Notes: generated by a model from the letters alone, not told the origin. A DNA stretch of 38,755 bases from Acetobacteraceae bacterium (GCA_027459285.1 DAIDIQ010000089.1:1-38755); one strand, 5' to 3'; shown: positions 24,630-33,685, counted from the first letter of the stretch. Numbers and translations: made by a program.

Positions 24630-24881
24630 ATGGCCGAAACCGTGCTGGACGTTAAGCAGTTGAAATGCCCGCTGCCGGTGCTGCGCGCGAACCGGGCGCT
24701 GCGGGGTCTTGCCGCCGGCGAGACGCTGCGCGTGCTGGCCACTGACCGCGCCTCGGTTGATGATTTCAAGGTATTCTGCCGCGAAACCGGCCACGCCCTG
24801 CTGGCCAGCGCTGAGCAGGATGGCGTGTTCAGCTTTCTGATCCGCAAGCACGCGAAGCCGGATGATGGGGCGGCGGCATGA
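24630..24881 (+). CDS. tusA: TusA-family sulfurtransferase
   Basis: 83 aa from ATG 24630 (MAETVLDVKQLKCPLPVL); the frame extends to 24510, but that part overlaps dinB on the other strand. The defining CPxP motif is present with the persulfide-carrying Cys13. The rest of the small alpha-beta fold is clear (GETLRVLATDRASVDDFKVFCRETGHALL). TusA proteins relay sulfur for tRNA thiolation, molybdenum cofactor synthesis or sulfur oxidation. No dsr/hdr genes are adjacent, so the partner cannot be named. Its stop overlaps the next start (ATGA). Confidence 0.93.
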   Translation: MAETVLDVKQLKCPLPVLRANRALRGLAAGETLRVLATDRASVDDFKVFCRETGHALLASAEQDGVFSFLIRKHAKPDDGAAA

Positions 24882-25810
24882 CCGTTACCTTGTTCACCCA
24901 CCCGGATTGCCTGGCGCACGACCCCGGCCCAGGCCACCCGGAGCGGCCGGAACGGCTGCGCGCGATACTGGCCGCGCTGGATGCGCCCGACTTCGCCACG
25001 CTGGACCGGCGCGAGGCGCCCTTGGCCGATGCGGCGGCGCTGCGGCGCGCGCACAGCCCGGCCTATGTCGAGGCGATTTTCGCCGCCGCGCCACCGCCGG
25101 GCACGCGCGTGACCCTGGACCCCGACACGCATATGTCCGCCGGCAGCCTGGATGCCGCGCGCCGCGCCGCTGGCGGGGCGATGGCGGCCGTTGACGCGGT
25201 GCTGAGTGGCGCGGCACGGCACGCTTTCGTGGCCACCCGCCCACCTGGTCACCATGCCGAGCCTGGCCAGGCCATGGGGTTTTGTTTGTTCAACAGCGTG
25301 GTGGTGGCGGCGCTGCACGCGCGCGCGGCGCACGGCATTGCGCGTGTGGCCGTGATCGATTTCGACGTGCACCATGGCAACGGCACCCAGGCCATGGCGT
25401 GGGACGATGCCGACCTGTTTTATGGCAGCACCCATCAGATGCCCTGCTACCCCGGCACCGGCGCGGCGGAAGAGCGGGGTGCGTTTGGCACCGTACTCAA
25501 CGAGCCCCTGCCGCCCGGTGCCGGCGGCGCCACCTTTCGCGCTGCCTTTGATGCCGTGCTGGACGGGATGCGCGCCTTCGGACCTGAGCTGGTGCTGGTT
25601 TCCGCGGGCTTTGATGCGCACCGCGACGACCCGCTGGCCTCCCTGATGTTGGACGAGACGGATTTCGCCTGGGCTGCTGGCCGCCTGATCGAGGTGTCGG
25701 GGGGGCATCTGGTCTCGGTGCTTGAAGGCGGCTACGACCTGGACGCGCTGGCGGCCAGTGTGGCTGCCTATCTTCGTGTCATCATCGCACAGGATGCCGA
25801 ACATGGCTGA
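24878..25810 (+). CDS. Histone deacetylase-family amidohydrolase
   Basis: 310 aa, an arginase/deacetylase fold enzyme of the class II HDAC / acetylpolyamine amidohydrolase group. Zinc-site and catalytic residues are present: RPPGHHAEP (His pair), VIDFDVHHGNGTQ (Asp and His zinc ligands), SAGFDAHRDDPL (second Asp ligand), and LEGGYDL. The start overlaps the tusA stop by 4 nt, and the end overlaps the xseB start by 8 nt, so all three are coupled. Bacterial members deacetylate small molecules such as polyamines or acetoin-related compounds; the substrate here is unknown. Confidence 0.93.
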   Translation: MTVTLFTHPDCLAHDPGPGHPERPERLRAILAALDAPDFATLDRREAPLADAAALRRAHSPAYVEAIFAAAPPPGTRVTLDPDTHMSAGSLDAARRAAGGAMAAVDAVLSGAARHAFVATRPPGHHAEPGQAMGFCLFNSVVVAALHARAAHGIARVAVIDFDVHHGNGTQAMAWDDADLFYGSTHQMPCYPGTGAAEERGAFGTVLNEPLPPGAGGATFRAAFDAVLDGMRAFGPELVLVSAGFDAHRDDPLASLMLDETDFAWAAGRLIEVSGGHLVSVLEGGYDLDALAASVAAYLRVIIAQDAEHG

Positions 25811-26048: not shown

Positions 26049-26819
26049 ATGAAGCCGCGCGCGGATGCGCTGCTGGTGGCGCGCGGCCTGGCCGAAAGCC
26101 GCAGCCAGGCACAGGCGTTGATTTTGGCCGGCAAGGTTTTCCGTGGCGAACAGCGGATCGAGAAGCCTGGCCAGACACTGGCCGAGGATGCGGCCTTGCA
26201 GGTGCGCGGCGAAGCTCATCCGTGGGTTTCACGCGGGGGGGTAAAACTTGCGCACGCCATGGAATTTTTTGGACTGGGCGCGACCGGCCGGACATGCCTC
26301 GATATCGGCGCCTCGACCGGCGGCTTTACCGACGTGTTGCTCACGAATGGCGCCGCCCGGGTGCACGCGGTTGATGTGGGGCACGGCCAACTGGCCTGGA
26401 AACTGCGCAACGACGCGCGCGTTGTGGTGCACGAAAAGACCAATGCGCGGCACCTGACGCCGGCGATTATTCCCGACCCGATTACTGCCCTCGTATGCGA
26501 TGCGAGCTTTATCGGCCTGCGCACCGTGCTGCCGGCGGGGCTTGGCTTGTGCCGCCCCGACGCCTGGGCGGTGGCGCTGATCAAGCCGCAATTCGAGGCG
26601 GGGCGCGACCATGTGGGCAGCAAGGGCGTGGTGCGCGACCCGGCGGTGCACGCGGCGATTTGCGCAACCATCAAAGCCTGGTGGGAGAACCTGCCGGGAT
26701 GGACGGTGCTGGGAATTGAACCAAGCCCGATCAAGGGACCGGAAGGGAATATCGAGTTTCTGATTGCCGCGACATATACAGTATTCCAGGGCACTGCCAT
26801 GGACCCGCCGGGGACGTGA
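26049..26819 (+). CDS. tlyA: TlyA-family rRNA 2'-O-methyltransferase (S4 plus FtsJ domains)
   Basis: 256 aa. An N-terminal S4 RNA-binding domain (about 1-60, RADALLVARGLAESRSQAQALILAGKV) is followed by a Rossmann methyltransferase of the FtsJ type. The SAM motif LDIGASTGGFTDVLL (about 80-94), VCDASFIGLRTVLP, and LIKPQFEAGRDHVGSKGVV supply the expected Lys-Asp-Lys-Glu catalytic set. Mycobacterial TlyA methylates cytidines in 16S and 23S rRNA and affects capreomycin sensitivity; other members have been annotated as haemolysins. Last gene of the tusA operon, convergent with the TPR/ATP-grasp gene. Confidence 0.93.
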   Translation: MKPRADALLVARGLAESRSQAQALILAGKVFRGEQRIEKPGQTLAEDAALQVRGEAHPWVSRGGVKLAHAMEFFGLGATGRTCLDIGASTGGFTDVLLTNGAARVHAVDVGHGQLAWKLRNDARVVVHEKTNARHLTPAIIPDPITALVCDASFIGLRTVLPAGLGLCRPDAWAVALIKPQFEAGRDHVGSKGVVRDPAVHAAICATIKAWWENLPGWTVLGIEPSPIKGPEGNIEFLIAATYTVFQGTAMDPPGT

Positions 26820-26838: not shown

Positions 26839-28338
26839 TCAGCCAGCGTGCGCCCGACCGGCAATGGCTTTCAGCATCGCGGCAAACGCGTTCTGAATTT
26901 CCGTAACCGCCTGGTTGCGATAGGCGAAAGGTCCGTCCGCCGGCTCGGGGTGGACCAGCATCGCGGCATTCGCCTCGAACACGAGCACCTGGCCTTCCTG
27001 AGTTAGGGAAAAATCTATCCCGGCATAGTCGAGATCGAGCCGTTGCCCGATTGCCTCGATCGCGGCGGCGGCGTTTGGGCCGAGCACGCCGCGCCAATCG
27101 GCCAGGAAGCGCCGCTCCTCGTCGCGCCTCGTGGCATCATGCTCCATGCCGGCGGTGCAATGATGCACCAGCCAATGCGGGCTGATGGCCAGATGCAGGG
27201 GATAGGGCCGCCGATCGACGAAGATGACACGGTATTTGCGCCAAAACCCGTCCGGCGCGCGGAAATCATGAAAGCGTGTCAGCACCGCGGGAAAATCCGG
27301 GAGCGCCGCAAGCTGTTGCGCGCTTTCGATCAGACGCAGCCCGTTGCCGCCATGCGTGCCGCGTGGGCGCACCAACAGCGGAAAGCCGATTGCCGCCGCC
27401 GCCACGCGATCGAGCCCAACCGCGGGCACGATGATGCCGTCGATGCCGGCCAACAGTGCCGGCAACGCATCACGCGTGGTGCGTGCCACTTGCGCCGGCG
27501 GGTTGAGCAGACGGTCTGCCTGGTTCGTCAGGCGGGCGCGCACGCATGCGGGCAGGACAGGGGCCAGTTCCGGTTCACCGATCGCGTTGAAAATAAGATC
27601 GTATGGTGGCAAGGCGTCGCCCGGCTCGGCATATTCCACGTACCAGAAGATAAGGGTTATGTGCTGGCGGTCGAACAGGTGGCGCAGTGGCGTGTTGGCG
27701 AGGTCGGCCGCGGCCAGCACCAGCACGCGCCGTTGCGTGAACGGCGCCTCGGTCACGAAGATATGCTGGCGCTTATAGGCGGCGTCCCGGTGGGCGCGGG
27801 CGGCTGGGGGGTCTGCCTCGGCCAGAATGGCGCTCATGTTCTGGTGGGCGGCGACCAGATCGGGGTCGTTGACCAGGGCGGCGCGGCATGGCAGCTCGGC
27901 CTCGGCCAGCTTGCCGCGCCGCACCAGCACCGAGGCCAGATTGGCCAGCGCCGGCGTGCAATCTGGCGCCAGCGCCACCGCGCGGCATAGCACCCGCTCC
28001 GCCTCCTCGAGCCGGTCAAGCTCCATCAACGCGCTGGCCAGGCTGACCAGCAGGCGCGGCCGGCCTGGGGTCAGCGCGGCGGCGCGCGCGTAGGCCATGG
28101 CGGCGGCTTCATGCGCGCCCTGACGGGCATGACTATCGGCCGCCACCAGCAATGCCGGCACACACTCTGGCGCCAGGGCCAAACAGGCTGTCGCCTCGTG
28201 CAGCGCGTCATCCAGCTTGCCGGCCGCCAGCAGGCTCTCGGCCAGACTTGCCCGCAGCGCGGGGGTCGCGGCATCGCCGACCATGCGGGCCAGCGCGGCC
28301 AGCGCCGCGGCCTCGGGCGTGGGAATGGCGAGGCTCAT
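26839..28338 (-). CDS. TPR / ATP-grasp fusion protein, copy 1
   Basis: 499 aa. Residues about 25-190 are four to five tetratricopeptide repeats (for example KLDDALHEATACLALAPE, EEAERVLCRAVALAPD). Residues about 200-470 look like an ATP-grasp ligase: a conserved entry region with YVEYAEPG and NAIGEP, a glycine-rich loop LLVRPRGTHGGNG (about 321-333, Arg where the first ATP-binding Lys is usual), RKYRVIFVDRRPYPLHL (Lys369), and a metal-site strand YAGIDFSLT...VLVFEANAAM with Asp442, Glu456 and Asn458. The protein is probably cytoplasmic. It overlaps the upstream paralogue by 4 nt and is closely related to it. ATP-grasp enzymes join a carboxylate to an amine or similar; the substrate is unknown. 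Confidence 0.75.
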   Translation of the reverse strand: MSLAIPTPEAAALAALARMVGDAATPALRASLAESLLAAGKLDDALHEATACLALAPECVPALLVAADSHARQGAHEAAAMAYARAAALTPGRPRLLVSLASALMELDRLEEAERVLCRAVALAPDCTPALANLASVLVRRGKLAEAELPCRAALVNDPDLVAAHQNMSAILAEADPPAARAHRDAAYKRQHIFVTEAPFTQRRVLVLAAADLANTPLRHLFDRQHITLIFWYVEYAEPGDALPPYDLIFNAIGEPELAPVLPACVRARLTNQADRLLNPPAQVARTTRDALPALLAGIDGIIVPAVGLDRVAAAAIGFPLLVRPRGTHGGNGLRLIESAQQLAALPDFPAVLTRFHDFRAPDGFWRKYRVIFVDRRPYPLHLAISPHWLVHHCTAGMEHDATRRDEERRFLADWRGVLGPNAAAAIEAIGQRLDLDYAGIDFSLTQEGQVLVFEANAAMLVHPEPADGPFAYRNQAVTEIQNAFAAMLKAIAGRAHAG

Positions 28339-29642
28339 GCGTGGGCCATCGGCATGGCCCGGGCCAGCAGCATGGCCTGGGCGGCGTTCAGCGCGCGCGC
28401 CATGGCCCGTGCCCGCGCCGGCGGCACGTCACCCGGGCGGGGCGGCAGCAGGGTCATGGCCGCATTGGCCTCGAACACCAGCAGCATATCATTTCCGGTC
28501 AGGGTAAAATCGATGCCGGCATAATCCAGTCCCAGCCGATCGGCGATGGCGGCCAGTGCCCGCATGCGGCGCGGGCCCAGCACACGCGGCATGGCGGACA
28601 GGAAGGCTGCTTCCTCCGCGCATTGGGCCGGGCTTTGCGGCGGGGCCGAAAACCCATGCACCTTCCAGCTTGGCGCATGCACGAGGTGAATGGGATAAAA
28701 CGCCCCGCCGATCAGCATGACGCGGTATTTGCGATGCAGCCCGTCCGGGCCGCGGGTTTGCAGCGCGCTGATGGCGAACACCGTCTGCCTGCCGGCCACG
28801 CGGCGAAAGGCACGCAGATCAGCCGCGGTCTCGATCCGGTCGAACATCTGGCCGGCGTGCAGCCCGATCTGGCGCAGCAGATACGGCATTGGCCGCGCTT
28901 CCAGCCCCGGATGGTCCGCTGGCACGGCTTCGATGTCCGGCACGACGACACCATCGAGCCCGCGCAGCCGCGCCGCCATGTCAGCGCGGCCAGTGTGCCG
29001 CACCCGGTCCGGGGGGTTGAGGACCGGGGCGCGGCGGCCAGCCAGCAAAGCCCGCGCCTGGGTGAGCGCGGCCGCGCCGGCATCGGCATCGGCGATCGCA
29101 TTGAGTACCAGCGCATGCGGCGGCAAGGGTTGGCGTGGCCTGGCGTATTCGACATAGAGCGCGCTGACGGCAACACGCGCCGGGTCCAGCAATGCGGCGG
29201 TGACCAGGTTGATGGCGTGCACCGAGACCAGCAGCAGCACCGGCACATGCGGCCCCGCGCCATGCGCGGGCAGCACCTCCAGCGCGCCATGAGCGAAGCC
29301 GCGCCGCAAAGCCGCCTCGGCCGCCGCCGCCTCGTTCAGGGCAAGCAAGGCGGCGCCCAGGCCGCGCCAGGCGCCCACATGGCCTGGCGCGCGCGCCAGC
29401 GCCGCGCAAAACACGTCCCGGGCGGCGGCAAATTGCCGATCCGTCAGCAGGACATGGCCAAGCTGCACGGGAATATCAGCGTCATGTGGGGCGAGCGCGG
29501 CCGCCCGATGCAGCGCGGTGCATGCCGCCTGCCGAAAGCCCTGTCGTCCCGCACTGGCGGCGAAGTGCCGCAAGGCAGTCAGATCGTCCGGGTTGGCCCG
29601 AAGACACGCCAGATCAGCAACAGGCGCGGATGCGTTTTGCAT
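28335..29642 (-). CDS. TPR / ATP-grasp fusion protein, copy 2
   Basis: 435 aa from ATG 29642 (MQNASAPVADLACL); the frame extends to 29741 with sequence unlike the family, and no strong ribosome-binding site helps decide. It has a shorter TPR region (about 20-120) and the same C-terminal half as copy 1: YVEYARP, NAIADA, VLNPPDRV, GLDGVVVPD, RKYRVMLIGGAFYPIHL (Lys305) and LDYAGIDFTLT...LLVFEANAAM (Asp378, Glu391, Asn393). The glycine loop is altered (YLLRQIGLHAGQ), so nucleotide binding may differ from copy 1. The two may act as a pair, one catalytic and one structural, or on different substrates. Downstream of the glycosyltransferase gene by 123 nt. Confidence 0.7.
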   Translation of the reverse strand: MQNASAPVADLACLRANPDDLTALRHFAASAGRQGFRQAACTALHRAAALAPHDADIPVQLGHVLLTDRQFAAARDVFCAALARAPGHVGAWRGLGAALLALNEAAAAEAALRRGFAHGALEVLPAHGAGPHVPVLLLVSVHAINLVTAALLDPARVAVSALYVEYARPRQPLPPHALVLNAIADADAGAAALTQARALLAGRRAPVLNPPDRVRHTGRADMAARLRGLDGVVVPDIEAVPADHPGLEARPMPYLLRQIGLHAGQMFDRIETAADLRAFRRVAGRQTVFAISALQTRGPDGLHRKYRVMLIGGAFYPIHLVHAPSWKVHGFSAPPQSPAQCAEEAAFLSAMPRVLGPRRMRALAAIADRLGLDYAGIDFTLTGNDMLLVFEANAAMTLLPPRPGDVPPARARAMARALNAAQAMLLARAMPMAHA

Positions 29643-29740
29643 CGGGGCACGACTTTCGCGGTTTTTGCCGCGGGCAGGGTGACGGGGATGCGTTACGAAA
29701 CGGTTGATGCAAGCAGCCTGTTTTTTGTTTCTTCCTCTCA

Positions 29741-29760
29741 AGACAAAATAATTTTTGTCT
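29741..29760. terminator. A/T-armed hairpin between glycosyltransferase and TPR/ATP-grasp genes
   Basis: Arms AGACAAAA (29741-29748) and TTTTGTCT (29753-29760) around TAAT, perfect 8-bp stem. It lies 6 nt beyond the stop of the minus-strand glycosyltransferase. There is no T tract beyond the stem on the minus strand, so termination would be partial and readthrough into the TPR/ATP-grasp genes is possible. Confidence 0.45.
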
Positions 29761-29765
29761 CCCCC

Positions 29766-31232
29766 TCATCTAGCCCCGTCGGCCAGTGTCGGCGTTGGCA
29801 GCGTGCGCCGGCTGCGGGCGCCCCAGTGCATCTGCCGGGTCAGCAGCGAAACCCAACCCAGGCTCGCGCCCAGATGGCGCAGCAATTGGAACGTGAACGG
29901 CTCGATCAGCGCGCCCAACAAAGCCGACCCATAGCTGACCCGCCCGGAGGTGCCGACCCAGCGCCGATACAGATGCACCGACCACAAATAAAAGCCAAAA
30001 TCGAACAGCAATTTCGCGCCAATGACTGCGCCGGCGCCGAGCACCACCGCGGCACGGCCGGTCAGCAGATAGTAGAACAACAGAAATATCGCGGTCAGGC
30101 CGTAAATTGGCTGCATGGTATCCGCCGCCTTCACCGGCAGCATGCGCGTGCCCAGATGTCCGAAACGGGCATTGCCCACCATGTCCCGGTACCACATCTG
30201 GGTCTGCAGAAACCCGCCGAACCAGCGCCGCCGCTGCCGCAGAAAAGCGCCGATCGTCGAGGGCGCCTCGGTGCTGGCGCGCGCATCGCCCAGCACCGTG
30301 GTGGTCCAGCCCAACCCGTGCAGCACGCTGACGCGGCGCAGCCGGTGGATCAGCTCATAATCCTCGACCAGGCAATCCGGGTCGAACCCGCCCACGCGCA
30401 GCAGGGCCGCGCGCCGGAAGCCGGCAAAAGCCCCCGAAATCAAAAGCAGCCCGTCCTGCCGGGCCCAGGCCGCGCGTGACAGGAAATTTCGCAGATATTC
30501 ATGGGTCTGGAACCACTGCATCACCCGCCCGGCCAGGCTGGTGTCGCACACCGGGACGAGAATACCGGTTGCCGCCACCAGCCCCGGGTTGTTGGCGAAT
30601 GCCCGCCGCATGGCCGCCACCGCGCCGGCCTCGAGCAGCGTGTCGGCATCGACCGTCAGCACGATGTCGGTCTCGATTTGCGAGAGCGCCCGATTCAGCG
30701 CCCGCGCCTTGCCGCCGTGCGGCAGGCGCAGCCAGGTCAGCCCGTCGCCCCCCCGCGTGGCAGCACCCACCGCCGGGGTGGCCAGCCCCATGCGCGCCAG
30801 CACGGCACCGGTATCATCGTCGGACCCGTCATCCACCACCACGATCTCATCCGGCACATCGCTGCCCGCCCGCAAAGCCCCGATCGTCGCCGCCAACACC
30901 GGCGCCTCGTTATGCGCGGCAATCAGCACCCCCAATGTGGGCCAGGTCGCAGGCCGGGTTGCGGCCGGCGCATCCGACCCCTTATGCAGCGCTGACCGTT
31001 CATGCAGCAGCGGCAACGTATTGAAGAACGTGAACACCAGCAGAGCCGTATCGTATAGCACATACACAATGCCCACCGCCCAGGCCCCCGCCACGTGCGC
31101 GCCGAACGCGCGCAGGAACAGCAGCAGCCAAAGGCAGGCCACCCCGCCATGGATCAGCACGGTGGCCGCCGGTGTGGCGGGCTTCGTGTATCGCGGCGAG
31201 ACCCGCCGCAGGGTGGTTTCCAGCGCCTGCAT
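29766..31232 (-). CDS. Processive family 2 glycosyltransferase, membrane-bound
   Basis: 488 aa from ATG 31232, chosen because GAGG (31237-31240) sits 4 nt upstream; ATG 31298 is possible but would leave only 6 nt to the divergent cytochrome gene. Two N-terminal membrane helices (about 22-41 and 50-70) precede a GT-A domain: LIAAHNEAPVLAATIGAL, VVVDDGSDDD, GGKARALNRAL and DXD-type TVDADT (Asp195, Asp197). The acceptor-site LVEDYEL and the QxxRW-type RQRRRWFGG mark the processive cellulose/chitin/PgaC-like subgroup. Several C-terminal helices follow (YGLTAIFLLFYYLL, LGAGAVIGAKLLFDFGFYLW). It should polymerise a beta-linked glycan at the inner membrane; the sugar is unknown. No PilZ domain or BcsB-type partner is nearby. 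Confidence 0.88.
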   Translation of the reverse strand: MQALETTLRRVSPRYTKPATPAATVLIHGGVACLWLLLFLRAFGAHVAGAWAVGIVYVLYDTALLVFTFFNTLPLLHERSALHKGSDAPAATRPATWPTLGVLIAAHNEAPVLAATIGALRAGSDVPDEIVVVDDGSDDDTGAVLARMGLATPAVGAATRGGDGLTWLRLPHGGKARALNRALSQIETDIVLTVDADTLLEAGAVAAMRRAFANNPGLVAATGILVPVCDTSLAGRVMQWFQTHEYLRNFLSRAAWARQDGLLLISGAFAGFRRAALLRVGGFDPDCLVEDYELIHRLRRVSVLHGLGWTTTVLGDARASTEAPSTIGAFLRQRRRWFGGFLQTQMWYRDMVGNARFGHLGTRMLPVKAADTMQPIYGLTAIFLLFYYLLTGRAAVVLGAGAVIGAKLLFDFGFYLWSVHLYRRWVGTSGRVSYGSALLGALIEPFTFQLLRHLGASLGWVSLLTRQMHWGARSRRTLPTPTLADGAR

Positions 31233-31304
31233 GCGCCTCACATCAGTCACCCCGGCGGCGTTGCAAGGCTCGGCGCCGGATATTTCCAGATAGGCCATTG
31301 CCCG

Positions 31305-31868
31305 ATGACACCGCCGTCCCGCTATACGCGCCCCGCAATTATCCTGCATTGGCTGATCGCGGGCCTGATCATAACCGCGGTGGCGCTCGGCTGGCTTGCC
31401 AATTTCCTGCCGGGCCCGGCGGTGCGCCCCACCATCGATGCGCATAAATCGGTCGGCATCATCGTGTTCGGCCTCGTCGTGCTGCGCCTGCTCTGGCGGT
31501 TCGGCCACAAACCGCCAGCCATGCCAGCGCGCTACAGCCGGGCCGAAATCCGCGCCGCGCATATCGCGCATTGGGTGCTGTACGCCCTCATGCTGCTATT
31601 GCCGATCACCGGCTATCTGCACGATTCGGCATTCAAACTGGCCGCCGAACATCCGCTGCGACTATTCTGGCTGGTCCCGTTTCCGCGTCTGCCGATCATC
31701 GCGCACATGGCCCCCGCGGCCAAGCAGGTGTTTCATGACCGGCTGTTCGCGCTGCATGTCTGGCTCGGCTACGTGCTTTATGCGGTGTTCGCCCTGCATG
31801 TCGCCGGTGCGCTGAAGCACCAGATACTCGACCATGAGGCGGAATTGCAGCGCATGTCGTTGCGCTGA
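31305..31868 (+). CDS. Cytochrome b561
   Basis: 187 aa from ATG 31305; the longer frame starting at 31095 overlaps the divergent glycosyltransferase. Four membrane helices carry the expected haem ligands: IILHWLIAG (helix 1), DAHKSVGIIVFG, IAHWVLYALMLLLPITGYL, and FALHVWLGYVLYAVFALHVAGALKH. Length and pattern fit the YodB/CybB family of two-haem quinol-superoxide or electron-transfer proteins. Followed, 12 nt later, by the convergent cutA gene. Confidence 0.92.
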   Translation: MTPPSRYTRPAIILHWLIAGLIITAVALGWLANFLPGPAVRPTIDAHKSVGIIVFGLVVLRLLWRFGHKPPAMPARYSRAEIRAAHIAHWVLYALMLLLPITGYLHDSAFKLAAEHPLRLFWLVPFPRLPIIAHMAPAAKQVFHDRLFALHVWLGYVLYAVFALHVAGALKHQILDHEAELQRMSLR

Positions 31869-31880
31869 TCGCCGCCGCCG

Positions 31881-32216
31881 TCATGGTGGCGGCTGGCATT
31901 CCTGCCTGACCCAGTCGCAATAGGGCGCGTGCCCCTCGGCAATCGGCCACGCGACGATGCAGGGCAGGGTATAGCTGTGCTCCGCCACAATCAGGTCGCG
32001 CAACGCCGCAAGGCACCCGCCCACGGTCTTGATCATCAGGCCGGCTTCCGGGGCGATCCGCACCGCGCCCTCCCAGCGGAAAATCGCCTCATGCGCGCGG
32101 ATATTGGCGCAGGCGGCAAGGTGCCGTGTCACCGCCAGCGCGCCAATCCTCCGGGCCTCCGCCTCGGTCGCGCAGGTCACGTAAACCAGCAGAATCGCGC
32201 CTGGCTCAGCAGCCAC
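31881..32216 (-). CDS. cutA: Divalent-cation tolerance protein CutA
   Basis: 111 aa, a ferredoxin-like trimeric protein of the CutA1 family. Characteristic segments: LVYVTCATEAEARRIGALAVTRHLAACANI, IFRWEGAVRIAPEAGLMIKT and HSYTLPCIVAWPIAEGHAPYCDWV. The role in metal tolerance comes from E. coli genetics and the precise biochemistry remains debated. The start overlaps the 3' end of the EipB-like gene by 11 nt, implying co-transcription. Confidence 0.93.
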   Translation of the reverse strand: MAAEPGAILLVYVTCATEAEARRIGALAVTRHLAACANIRAHEAIFRWEGAVRIAPEAGLMIKTVGGCLAALRDLIVAEHSYTLPCIVAWPIAEGHAPYCDWVRQECQPPP

Positions 32217-33003
32217 GCCGGCCCAATTTCAGCCGCGTCATGGCGCCATCCATGATGAAATCGCCGAAATTCATCGTCAGGTCATCGGCAACCCCGTTGC
32301 GCCAATAGCGCATCGCGGTCGCGTAATCCGGCTCGGCATCGGGGCTGTCATGGTCATAAAAGGCGATGTTCACGGTCGTGCTCGGCAGCTTGGCGAGTGC
32401 CGCGAACCTGTCCGAGCCCGGCGCCGCCCTGCCGGTCACCACCACGAACGTGTCCTCGGCCCCGGTATCGCTCGACCCGTCGAAAAGTGGCAGGGCAAGG
32501 AATTTCTCACCCATGTCGGCCAGCGCCAGAATATGCGCGGTATGCGCCATGGGAAACAGCGTGCCCACCGGCAGGGCGATGGTCCTCTTGCGTGGCGCGG
32601 TATAGTGAACATAGCCCCGGCCGTCCCGCATTTCCGCCTGCCCGGCAATATCGCTGGTCGTCTCGCCGTCCGTCGTCTCGCGCAGCCGGAACCTGAGAAG
32701 GCTGCCGTTCTTTGCCTCATAGGTGGTAAAGTCCGACACGATCCGGGTGGCCTCGCCCCGGTTGGTCAGAACCTCCAGCACCAGCCGCTGCTGCGTGGTC
32801 CAGGCATCGCAGGCATCGAACACGCGGTAATCCATGCTCCCGCTGCCGCTCAGCACACTGCCATCCGGGCTGCCGCCGAAGCTCAGCCGATACACGGCTT
32901 GGTGCGGCGCCAACTGCGCGATGGCGGCGGCGAAATCCGGCTGGTTGGCAGCCCAGGCCGGCACCGCCAGCACAAGGGCGACGAGGATCGTCAACGCGCG
33001 CAT
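32206..33003 (-). CDS. eipB: EipB-family cell envelope integrity protein (DUF1849)
   Basis: 265 aa from ATG 33003, which is preceded by GGAGG at 8-nt spacing; the frame up to 33150 is spurious. Signal peptide MRALTILVALVLAVPAWA, cleavage before ANQPDF. The mature domain starts LAPHQAVYRLSF, typical of EipB, and holds a Cys in FDACDAW and a second Cys as its last residue (RLKLGRRGC). This matches the conserved disulfide joining the two ends of the beta-spiral protein in Brucella EipB. It acts in the periplasm, where EipB loss sensitises cells to envelope stress. Overlaps cutA. Confidence 0.85.
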   Translation of the reverse strand: MRALTILVALVLAVPAWAANQPDFAAAIAQLAPHQAVYRLSFGGSPDGSVLSGSGSMDYRVFDACDAWTTQQRLVLEVLTNRGEATRIVSDFTTYEAKNGSLLRFRLRETTDGETTSDIAGQAEMRDGRGYVHYTAPRKRTIALPVGTLFPMAHTAHILALADMGEKFLALPLFDGSSDTGAEDTFVVVTGRAAPGSDRFAALAKLPSTTVNIAFYDHDSPDAEPDYATAMRYWRNGVADDLTMNFGDFIMDGAMTRLKLGRRGC

Positions 33004-33091
33004 CACGCCTGCCTCCAGCTCACGCCCGTCGAAGCATGGCGCCCATTGCCTGCCGCGCCAAGCCAATTCGCGCCGTGCCCGCCCCCTGGCA

Positions 33092-33685
33092 TCAAACCGC
33101 GCGGCGGGTGCGCAACGCCGCCGCCAACGTGCCCTCGTCCAGGGTCTCAAGGCTGCCGCCCATCGGCACGCCCTGGCTCAGTTGCGTTATCACCACACCA
33201 AATTCGCGCAGCCGCTCGGACAGAAAATGCGCGGTGGTCGCGCCATCCACCGTCACCGGCAACGCCAGCACAATCTCGCGCACCTCGCCGCCGGACAGCC
33301 GGCTCAGCAACGGCGTCAGGTTCAGCGTCTCGGGCGTGGTGCCCGCCAATGCCGACAGCACACCTCCCAACACATGATAGCGGCCCCGATGCACGCCCGC
33401 CCGCTCCAACGCCCACAAATCCGCTACCGTTTCGACCACGCAAATCAGCCCGGTTTCGCGCCGCGGGTCACGGCACAGGCTGCACGGGTCCACGCTGTCC
33501 AGATTGCCGCACAGCCCGCACACCCGCGTGGTCTTGGCCGCGGCCTCCAACGCCCGTATCAGCGGCGCGAGCCGCGCCTCCGGCTGCTGCAATAATCTCA
33601 ACACGGCACGCCGGGCGCTGCGCGGGCCCAGACCCGGCAATCTGGCAAACTGCCCGATCAGTTGCTCGATTTCCGGGCCACCCAT
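33092..33685 (-). CDS. recR: Recombination protein RecR
   Basis: 197 aa, full family length. N-terminal helix-hairpin-helix region (FARLPGLGPRSARRAVLRLL), zinc finger CGLCGNLDSVDPCSLC with four Cys, and a Toprim domain starting ICVVETVADLWALE. RecR forms the clamp that loads RecA with RecF/RecO at single-strand gaps. ybaB lies just upstream as in many bacteria, but dnaX, usually the first gene of that set, is not in this stretch. Confidence 0.97.
   Translation of the reverse strand: MGGPEIEQLIGQFARLPGLGPRSARRAVLRLLQQPEARLAPLIRALEAAAKTTRVCGLCGNLDSVDPCSLCRDPRRETGLICVVETVADLWALERAGVHRGRYHVLGGVLSALAGTTPETLNLTPLLSRLSGGEVREIVLALPVTVDGATTAHFLSERLREFGVVITQLSQGVPMGGSLETLDEGTLAAALRTRRAV

Follow-up and report, generated by a model that had tools for sequence, protein, structure and literature searches.

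Overlapping genes for two TPR/ATP-grasp fusion proteins in an Acetobacteraceae bacterium represent a widespread family of putative RimK/LysX/ArgX-type ligases

The window analysed here is the whole 38,755-nt stretch DAIDIQ010000089.1:1-38755 from the Acetobacteraceae bacterium assembly GCA_027459285.1. On its minus strand, a gene for a processive-type family 2 glycosyltransferase (GT2) precedes copy 2 and then copy 1 of a protein that an earlier note on this DNA had described as a pair of paralogues, encoded by adjacent overlapping genes and fusing tetratricopeptide repeats (TPRs) to an ATP-grasp-like domain; both open reading frames are where they were reported, and structural models confirm the fold (Table 1). 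The ATGA junction between the two genes suggests their translational coupling. The copy 2 frame is open over 28335-29741 (-), reaching back to a TTG at 29741, and the first ATG in frame is at 29642; alignment of the TPR region with its relatives runs from this ATG, which is taken as the best start. Between the GT2 stop codon and this ATG lie 123 bases, which include a perfect 8-bp AT-rich palindrome (AGACAAAA/TTTTGTCT) at 29741-29760 in GC-rich surroundings; situated just past the GT2 stop codon, it could be an operator or a terminator-like element. The GT2 frame itself is open over 29766-31571 (-), with a likely start at about 31232. Downstream of copy 1 runs a convergent gene for a TlyA-type methyltransferase (26049-26819), and the flanks further hold a histone deacetylase-family protein (24878-25810) and an EipB-like protein (32206-33150), both ordinary by Pfam. 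A phage or defence origin was considered and rejected, as nothing matched in the phage collection, PHROGs or PADLOC.

Table 1. Genes, modules and junction of the TPR/ATP-grasp locus, in window coordinates.
Feature	Position	Strand	Evidence
Copy 1, TPR/ATP-grasp putative ligase, 499 aa	26839..28338	-	ORF; Pfam TPR; AlphaFold pLDDT 95.6; RimK/ArgX fold match
Copy 1 TPR superhelix, residues 1-191, 11 helices	27766..28338	-	Pfam; DSSP of model; MamA and OGT TPR match
Copy 1 ATP-grasp module, residues 203-497	26848..27732	-	AlphaFold model; fold match; residue table
Copy 1 module elements: pre-ATP-grasp strands, R324PxxxHxG loop, DGxxRKYR strand, D442 and E455-A-N457 metal site			
Copy 2, TPR/ATP-grasp putative ligase, 435 aa	28335..29642	-	ORF; AlphaFold pLDDT 93.2; ArgX/RimK fold match
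Copy 2 TPR region, residues 1-115, 7 helices	29298..29642	-	Pfam; model; fold match
Copy 2 ATP-grasp module, residues 133-431, catalytic-type residues retained	28350..29246	-	Fold match; residue table
ATGA overlap of the copy 2 stop codon with the copy 1 start codon, 4 bases	28335..28338	-	Sequence
GT2 processive-type glycosyltransferase	29766..31232	-	Pfam Glyco_tranf_2_3, E=1.7e-25; neighbour, judged outside the system

Pfam recognizes TPRs significantly in copy 1 (TPR_16, E=1.2e-12) and more weakly in copy 2 (best E=5.7e-5, with no TPR model above its own cut-off). No Pfam ATP-grasp model attains its cut-off on the window proteins, the matches to CPSase_L_D2 (E=0.0035) and ATPgrasp_ST (E=0.036) both falling below it; NCBIfam rimK_fam yields E=0.24 and 0.21 for the two copies, under the curated cut-off, and PF08443 is matched by 5 of 42 family members even at E<=0.05. 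Judged by these sequence scores, the proteins fall outside the RimK family as delimited by PF08443 and rimK_fam. Because all library scores for the catalytic module are sub-cut-off, the ATP-grasp call made in the earlier note went beyond library annotation. The very confident AlphaFold models of copy 1 (pTM 0.92, alignment of 80 sequences) and copy 2 (pTM 0.89, alignment of 69 sequences) each feature a TPR superhelix followed by a complete ATP-grasp fold, with the pre-ATP-grasp region and both lobes, and their best non-TPR matches are RimK, ArgX and LysX, end to end, with Z of about 18-20. Residues 203-497 of copy 1 superpose on RimK 7qys with Z 18.3 and an rmsd of 3.6 over 255 residues (ArgX 3vpb, Z 18.0; LysX 3vpd, Z 17.6), and residues 133-431 of copy 2 on ArgX 3vpb with Z 20.5 and an rmsd of 3.8 over 258 residues (RimK 5zct, Z 20.1; LysX 3vpd, Z 20.0; glutathione synthetase 1gsa, Z 17.6). 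VIA/Foldseek searches with the models likewise return RimK, ArgX, LysX and Ddl as members of the ATP-grasp superfamily, and since the VIA list for copy 1 consists mostly of TPR chains, no conclusion follows from the ATP-grasp families that it lacks. On the evidence of these models, in which both C-terminal halves fold as ATP-grasp modules, the assignment is right for both copies, even though no library supports it at its cut-off. At the other end, tandem 34-residue helix pairs forming a superhelix are found by Pfam in copy 1 and in the models of both copies; the N-terminal helices match TPRs of MamA, YrrB and O-GlcNAc transferase (OGT), with copy 2 superposing on those of OGT at Z of about 19 and copy 1 resembling them in sequence as well (phmmer E about 1e-23).

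ATP-grasp enzymes normally have two lysines at the nucleotide. In a residue table of 144 family sequences (copy 1 numbering), R289, R324, H329, G331, D363, R367, K368, R370, H382, D442 and E455 are invariant or nearly so, N457 is invariant in the TPR forms, and copy 2 retains every one of these residues. The shared blocks VEYA, NAI, LNPP, RKYRV, YAGIDF and VFEANAAM, pointed out previously, all recur in both proteins, and the same holds for the metal-site Asp/Glu/Asn that the earlier note had also reported: the Asp and ExN motif characteristic of the superfamily is present in each copy as D442, E455 and N457, with the Asp and Glu invariant across the 144 sequences. At the strand-2 position of an ATP-binding lysine the family features an arginine, the near-invariant R324, which the profile aligns with the IIRP and VVRP segments of carbamoyl-phosphate synthase, where strand 2 also contributes an Arg. 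The invariant R289 sits at or beside the position of the linker lysine, the profile alignment to LysX being off by one there, and it may be the exact counterpart of that residue. As arginine in place of the strand-2 lysine is unusual among RimK-like enzymes, nucleotide use may differ in this family.

Of the 397 genomes sampled from the window's taxonomic family, which includes Acidiphilium rubrum, 90 encode at least one family member, and a GTDB scan of contigs from species-representative genomes, based on a 10-sequence alignment, returned 305 confirmed stretches; recurrence on this scale places the observation beyond chance. The best 79 of the 305 loci come mostly from Acetobacteraceae/Acidocellaceae, Caulobacteraceae, Burkholderiales and other Betaproteobacteria, together with three Acidobacteria records. 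The family is thus widespread in Alpha- and Betaproteobacteria, usually as a single copy. Its members currently carry such database names as tetratricopeptide repeat-containing protein, RimK family alpha-L-glutamate ligase or hypothetical protein. Phylogenetic trees resolve an A-like group rich in TPRs; a B clade (100% SH-aLRT), to which copy 2 belongs and whose sampled members are all from the same taxonomic family as the window; a C clade, in which TPRs are not clear; and a D clade, which is small. As the C clade has no recognizable Pfam TPR, the family does not depend on the repeat scaffold. A third paralogue without recognizable Pfam TPR lies on another contig of the window's genome (C169; L030:6464-7726), near apparent acetyl-CoA synthetase and FdhD-like genes and with no pyridoxal phosphate (PLP) enzyme beside it.

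A-like and B genes are found together in seven sampled genomes, in tandem in three of them (the window's own, G000, as well as G008 and G099) and on separate contigs in the remainder (G082, G083, G158 and G206). Gene order is B then A in G008, as in the window, and A then B in G099, and a 4-base overlap joins the genes in all three tandem pairs. Other clades contribute tandem pairs of their own in Herbaspirillum (L054, L073), Bordetella (L077) and Elstera (L075) metagenome-assembled genomes (MAGs), and in most of the G008, G099, Herbaspirillum, Bordetella and Elstera records the tandem paralogues belong to different clades. Many sampled genomes have B genes without any A gene, some of which could be hidden by draft assembly. 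Pairing is therefore recurrent yet not obligatory, and an obligate pair is not borne out by homologues that are mostly single. That operons bring ATP-grasp ligases together in pairs is already known from other families (PMC4431377).

Fold and conserved residues are best explained by a model in which copies 1 and 2 are two separate and probably active RimK/LysX/ArgX-type ligases, with TPRs that bring in a protein or peptide; to this reading we give about even confidence. By analogy with RimK, LysX and ArgX, each copy would use ATP to convert a carboxylate into an acyl-phosphate, which would then be joined to an amine to give an amide or peptide bond, and the N-terminal TPR superhelix would most likely bring the protein or peptide, be it substrate or partner, to the ligase. 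Since the ATGA overlap would render the two ligases co-translated in the window's genome, they probably act in one process, sequentially or as partners. RimK, ArgX and LysX each attach an amino acid to the carboxylate of a protein, and the TPR superhelix of OGT recruits protein substrates. With the closest structural relatives acting on protein carboxylates, and given the TPRs, a protein or peptide substrate is favoured over a free metabolite. LysX and S6 modification have been placed within a peptide-bond-forming assemblage (PMC4431377). The earlier proposal of carboxylate-amine ligase paralogues on a TPR scaffold holds up as plausible; of the glycan or peptide modification that it envisaged, the link to a glycan is not supported. 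Against the model stand the C clade, which does without recognizable Pfam TPRs, and the neighbourhoods of TPR-type homologues, which in most genomes adjoin unrelated genes (release factor, TauE, MFS, UvrD, cytochrome bd and others).

Gene neighbours in other lineages keep a metabolite alive as the product. In 11 Burkholderiales loci, 8 of them with both genes on one strand, the family gene has a SerC-like class V transaminase gene as its neighbour; these loci are close kin and represent few independent events. In a Bordetella MAG (L060:1-3534), genes for a C-clade ATP-grasp protein, a SerC-like transaminase and a TPR ATP-grasp protein overlap head to tail on one strand, and on a plasmid of Paraburkholderia FT54 a C-clade ATP-grasp gene overlaps the serC that follows it. 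A Rhizobium tumorigenes plasmid (NZ_CP117260.1, L150:7680-12431) encodes in a row a C-clade ATP-grasp protein, a class V-like protein, which has no Pfam match and whose class V-like lysine motif was read by eye, and a PLP decarboxylase; relatives of the latter adjoin an ATP-grasp gene in L056, L053 and L145. Considered jointly, the SerC-like and PLP decarboxylase contexts point to amine or amino-acid chemistry, which under the protein or peptide reading, too, would agree with an amine or amino acid as substrate. The family could accordingly comprise small-molecule ligases making an amide-bonded metabolite or dipeptide, with a PLP enzyme supplying or trimming the amine and the TPRs only holding a complex together, and all of these arrays would fit such a role. 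The PLP links, however, come from other clades or lineages and not from near relatives of copies 1 and 2; no PLP gene lies beside either copy, beside the third paralogue or beside most same-family homologues, and a long TPR superhelix would be left unexplained, so that we consider this alternative possible but rather unlikely. Two features of these arrays merit separate mention. The Bordetella locus unites both family branches, the C clade and the TPR form. The Rhizobium row resembles a pathway for amines or amino acids that has yet to be described, and its C-clade protein (L150:7680-9392) is extended at the C terminus by about 150 aa (DDC...GHAVFW...DPG) that recall papain-like C39 peptidases, without Pfam confirmation.

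A further question concerns the catalytic status of copy 2, the earlier note having pointed out a difference in the glycine-rich ATP loop between the copies and allowed for one ligase as a possible pseudo-enzyme partner. The difference between the copies is in part a clade trait: the loop of copy 2 reads RQIGLHAGQM, with HAG where most members of its clade have HTG (Ala for Thr at position 330), against a background of unusually fast drift. Copy 2 lies on a long branch in both trees (1.04 versus a median of 0.26, and 0.98 versus 0.36), and it has lost M398 by deletion and R405 by substitution to Cys, both of which the rest of its clade keeps. These departures would suit a copy 2 that has lost catalysis and serves to regulate copy 1. 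Such a role is nonetheless improbable, given that the ATP- and metal-type residues conserved family-wide are all intact in copy 2, that its model retains the whole fold, and that many genomes have a member of its clade but no A-type gene, so that it would work alone there. To judge from its sequence, copy 2 appears to have undergone fast drift and not loss of the catalytic set, and drift is all that speaks for a pseudo-enzyme.

That the ligases might cross-link a small precursor peptide encoded nearby, as in graspetide systems, is suggested by the ATP-grasp nature of graspetide ligases and the TPR proteins present in some such loci (PMC8939145). We regard this as very improbable: there is no room between the window genes, and a survey of about 110 loci found no conserved short ORF near the family, except shadows of larger genes or plain synteny, and hence no linked conserved precursor gene. 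Several large neighbour communities and short-ORF families in these data proved to be shadows that real genes cast on the antisense strand or in an alternative frame, and they were left out of the evidence; L120:7297-8769 and L044:527-1867, antisense to GGDEF/EAL genes, appear to be of the same kind.

A processive-type GT2 gene, recognized as such by Pfam, does lie upstream on the same strand, as described previously, and the association with the ligases that had been built upon this position does not persist in other genomes. Relatives of the GT2 gene in four of these (G001, of the same genus and with 75% identity, G120, G110 and G007) lie beside a gene for a divergent cytochrome b561, an arrangement also present in the window, with no ATP-grasp gene adjoining; in G110 a D-clade gene situated about 10 kb away was judged to be there by chance. 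Conversely, clustering of about 110 loci revealed no recurring GT2 neighbour family beside the surveyed homologues. The GT2 is probably a bystander, unrelated to the ligases. Joint modification of a glycan by polysaccharide synthase and ligases, the pathway envisaged earlier from their adjacency on one strand, is largely refuted and barely credible, with GT2 keeping to cytochrome b561 elsewhere and 123 bases including the palindrome separating it from the copy 2 ATG. The GT2-cytochrome b561 pair (window 29766-31868), conserved in four genomes, may mark a functional unit of its own.

The reading of copies 1 and 2 as TPR-guided ligases can be extended to the family as a whole, which would then constitute an undescribed class of protein or peptide ligases with a strand-2 arginine, tagging or extending proteins with amino acids in many Proteobacteria, with paralogues paired and, in some lineages, a PLP enzyme of the same operon making the attached amine; in this full form we hold the idea to be speculative and unlikely. 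The recurrent PLP-enzyme link offers a concrete biochemical entry point. No named system with such a layout had been recognized in the earlier note, and the libraries indeed contain no named family; the open literature searched holds no description of TPR and ATP-grasp fusions, and the family may figure in earlier genomic surveys of ATP-grasp systems. The superfamily and its chemistry are already known; the fused, arginine-bearing family is undescribed in the libraries and open literature searched. With its 305 stretches, this confident ATP-grasp ligase family fits no Pfam or NCBIfam model.

Among characterized enzymes, RimK (ribosomal protein S6:glutamate ligase and poly-alpha-glutamate synthetase) shares the whole module fold (Z 18.3 for copy 1 and 20.1 for copy 2, about 255-260 residues) and, with the TPR forms of the family, the D, E and N metal ligands; it differs at 13-17% identity, in that the family has Arg for the strand-2 Lys, the RKYR strand and the TPR fusion, and reaches neither the Pfam RimK nor the NCBIfam rimK_fam cut-off. 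LysX and ArgX, which ligate amino acids on the LysW carrier protein, also match in fold (Z 17.6-20.5), and the EVNHTM motif of LysX aligns with EANATM of the family, whereas identity is 12-16%, the TPR fusion is particular to the family and no LysW-like gene lies beside the copies in the window. The ATP-binding domain of the large subunit of carbamoyl-phosphate synthase (CPSase_L_D2) is the best sequence-profile match (E=3.2e-5 in PDB) and has the Arg in its glycine-loop strand, but the match is partial, covering about 100 residues, and the overall architecture differs. Graspetide and R2K peptide ligases belong to the same superfamily and include operon-linked ligase pairs (PMC4431377), with the distinction that no precursor peptide was found near the family; R2K enzymes lack the linker Lys and keep that of strand 2, whereas in the family the strand-2 Lys is replaced by Arg. 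Finally, OGT likewise places a TPR superhelix directly ahead of its catalytic domain, with a TPR sequence similarity that is generic, and its catalytic domain is a glycosyltransferase where that of the family is an ATP-grasp ligase. If the TPRs do guide the family to proteins, it would represent a bacterial counterpart of OGT in layout, forming amide bonds instead of glycosides.
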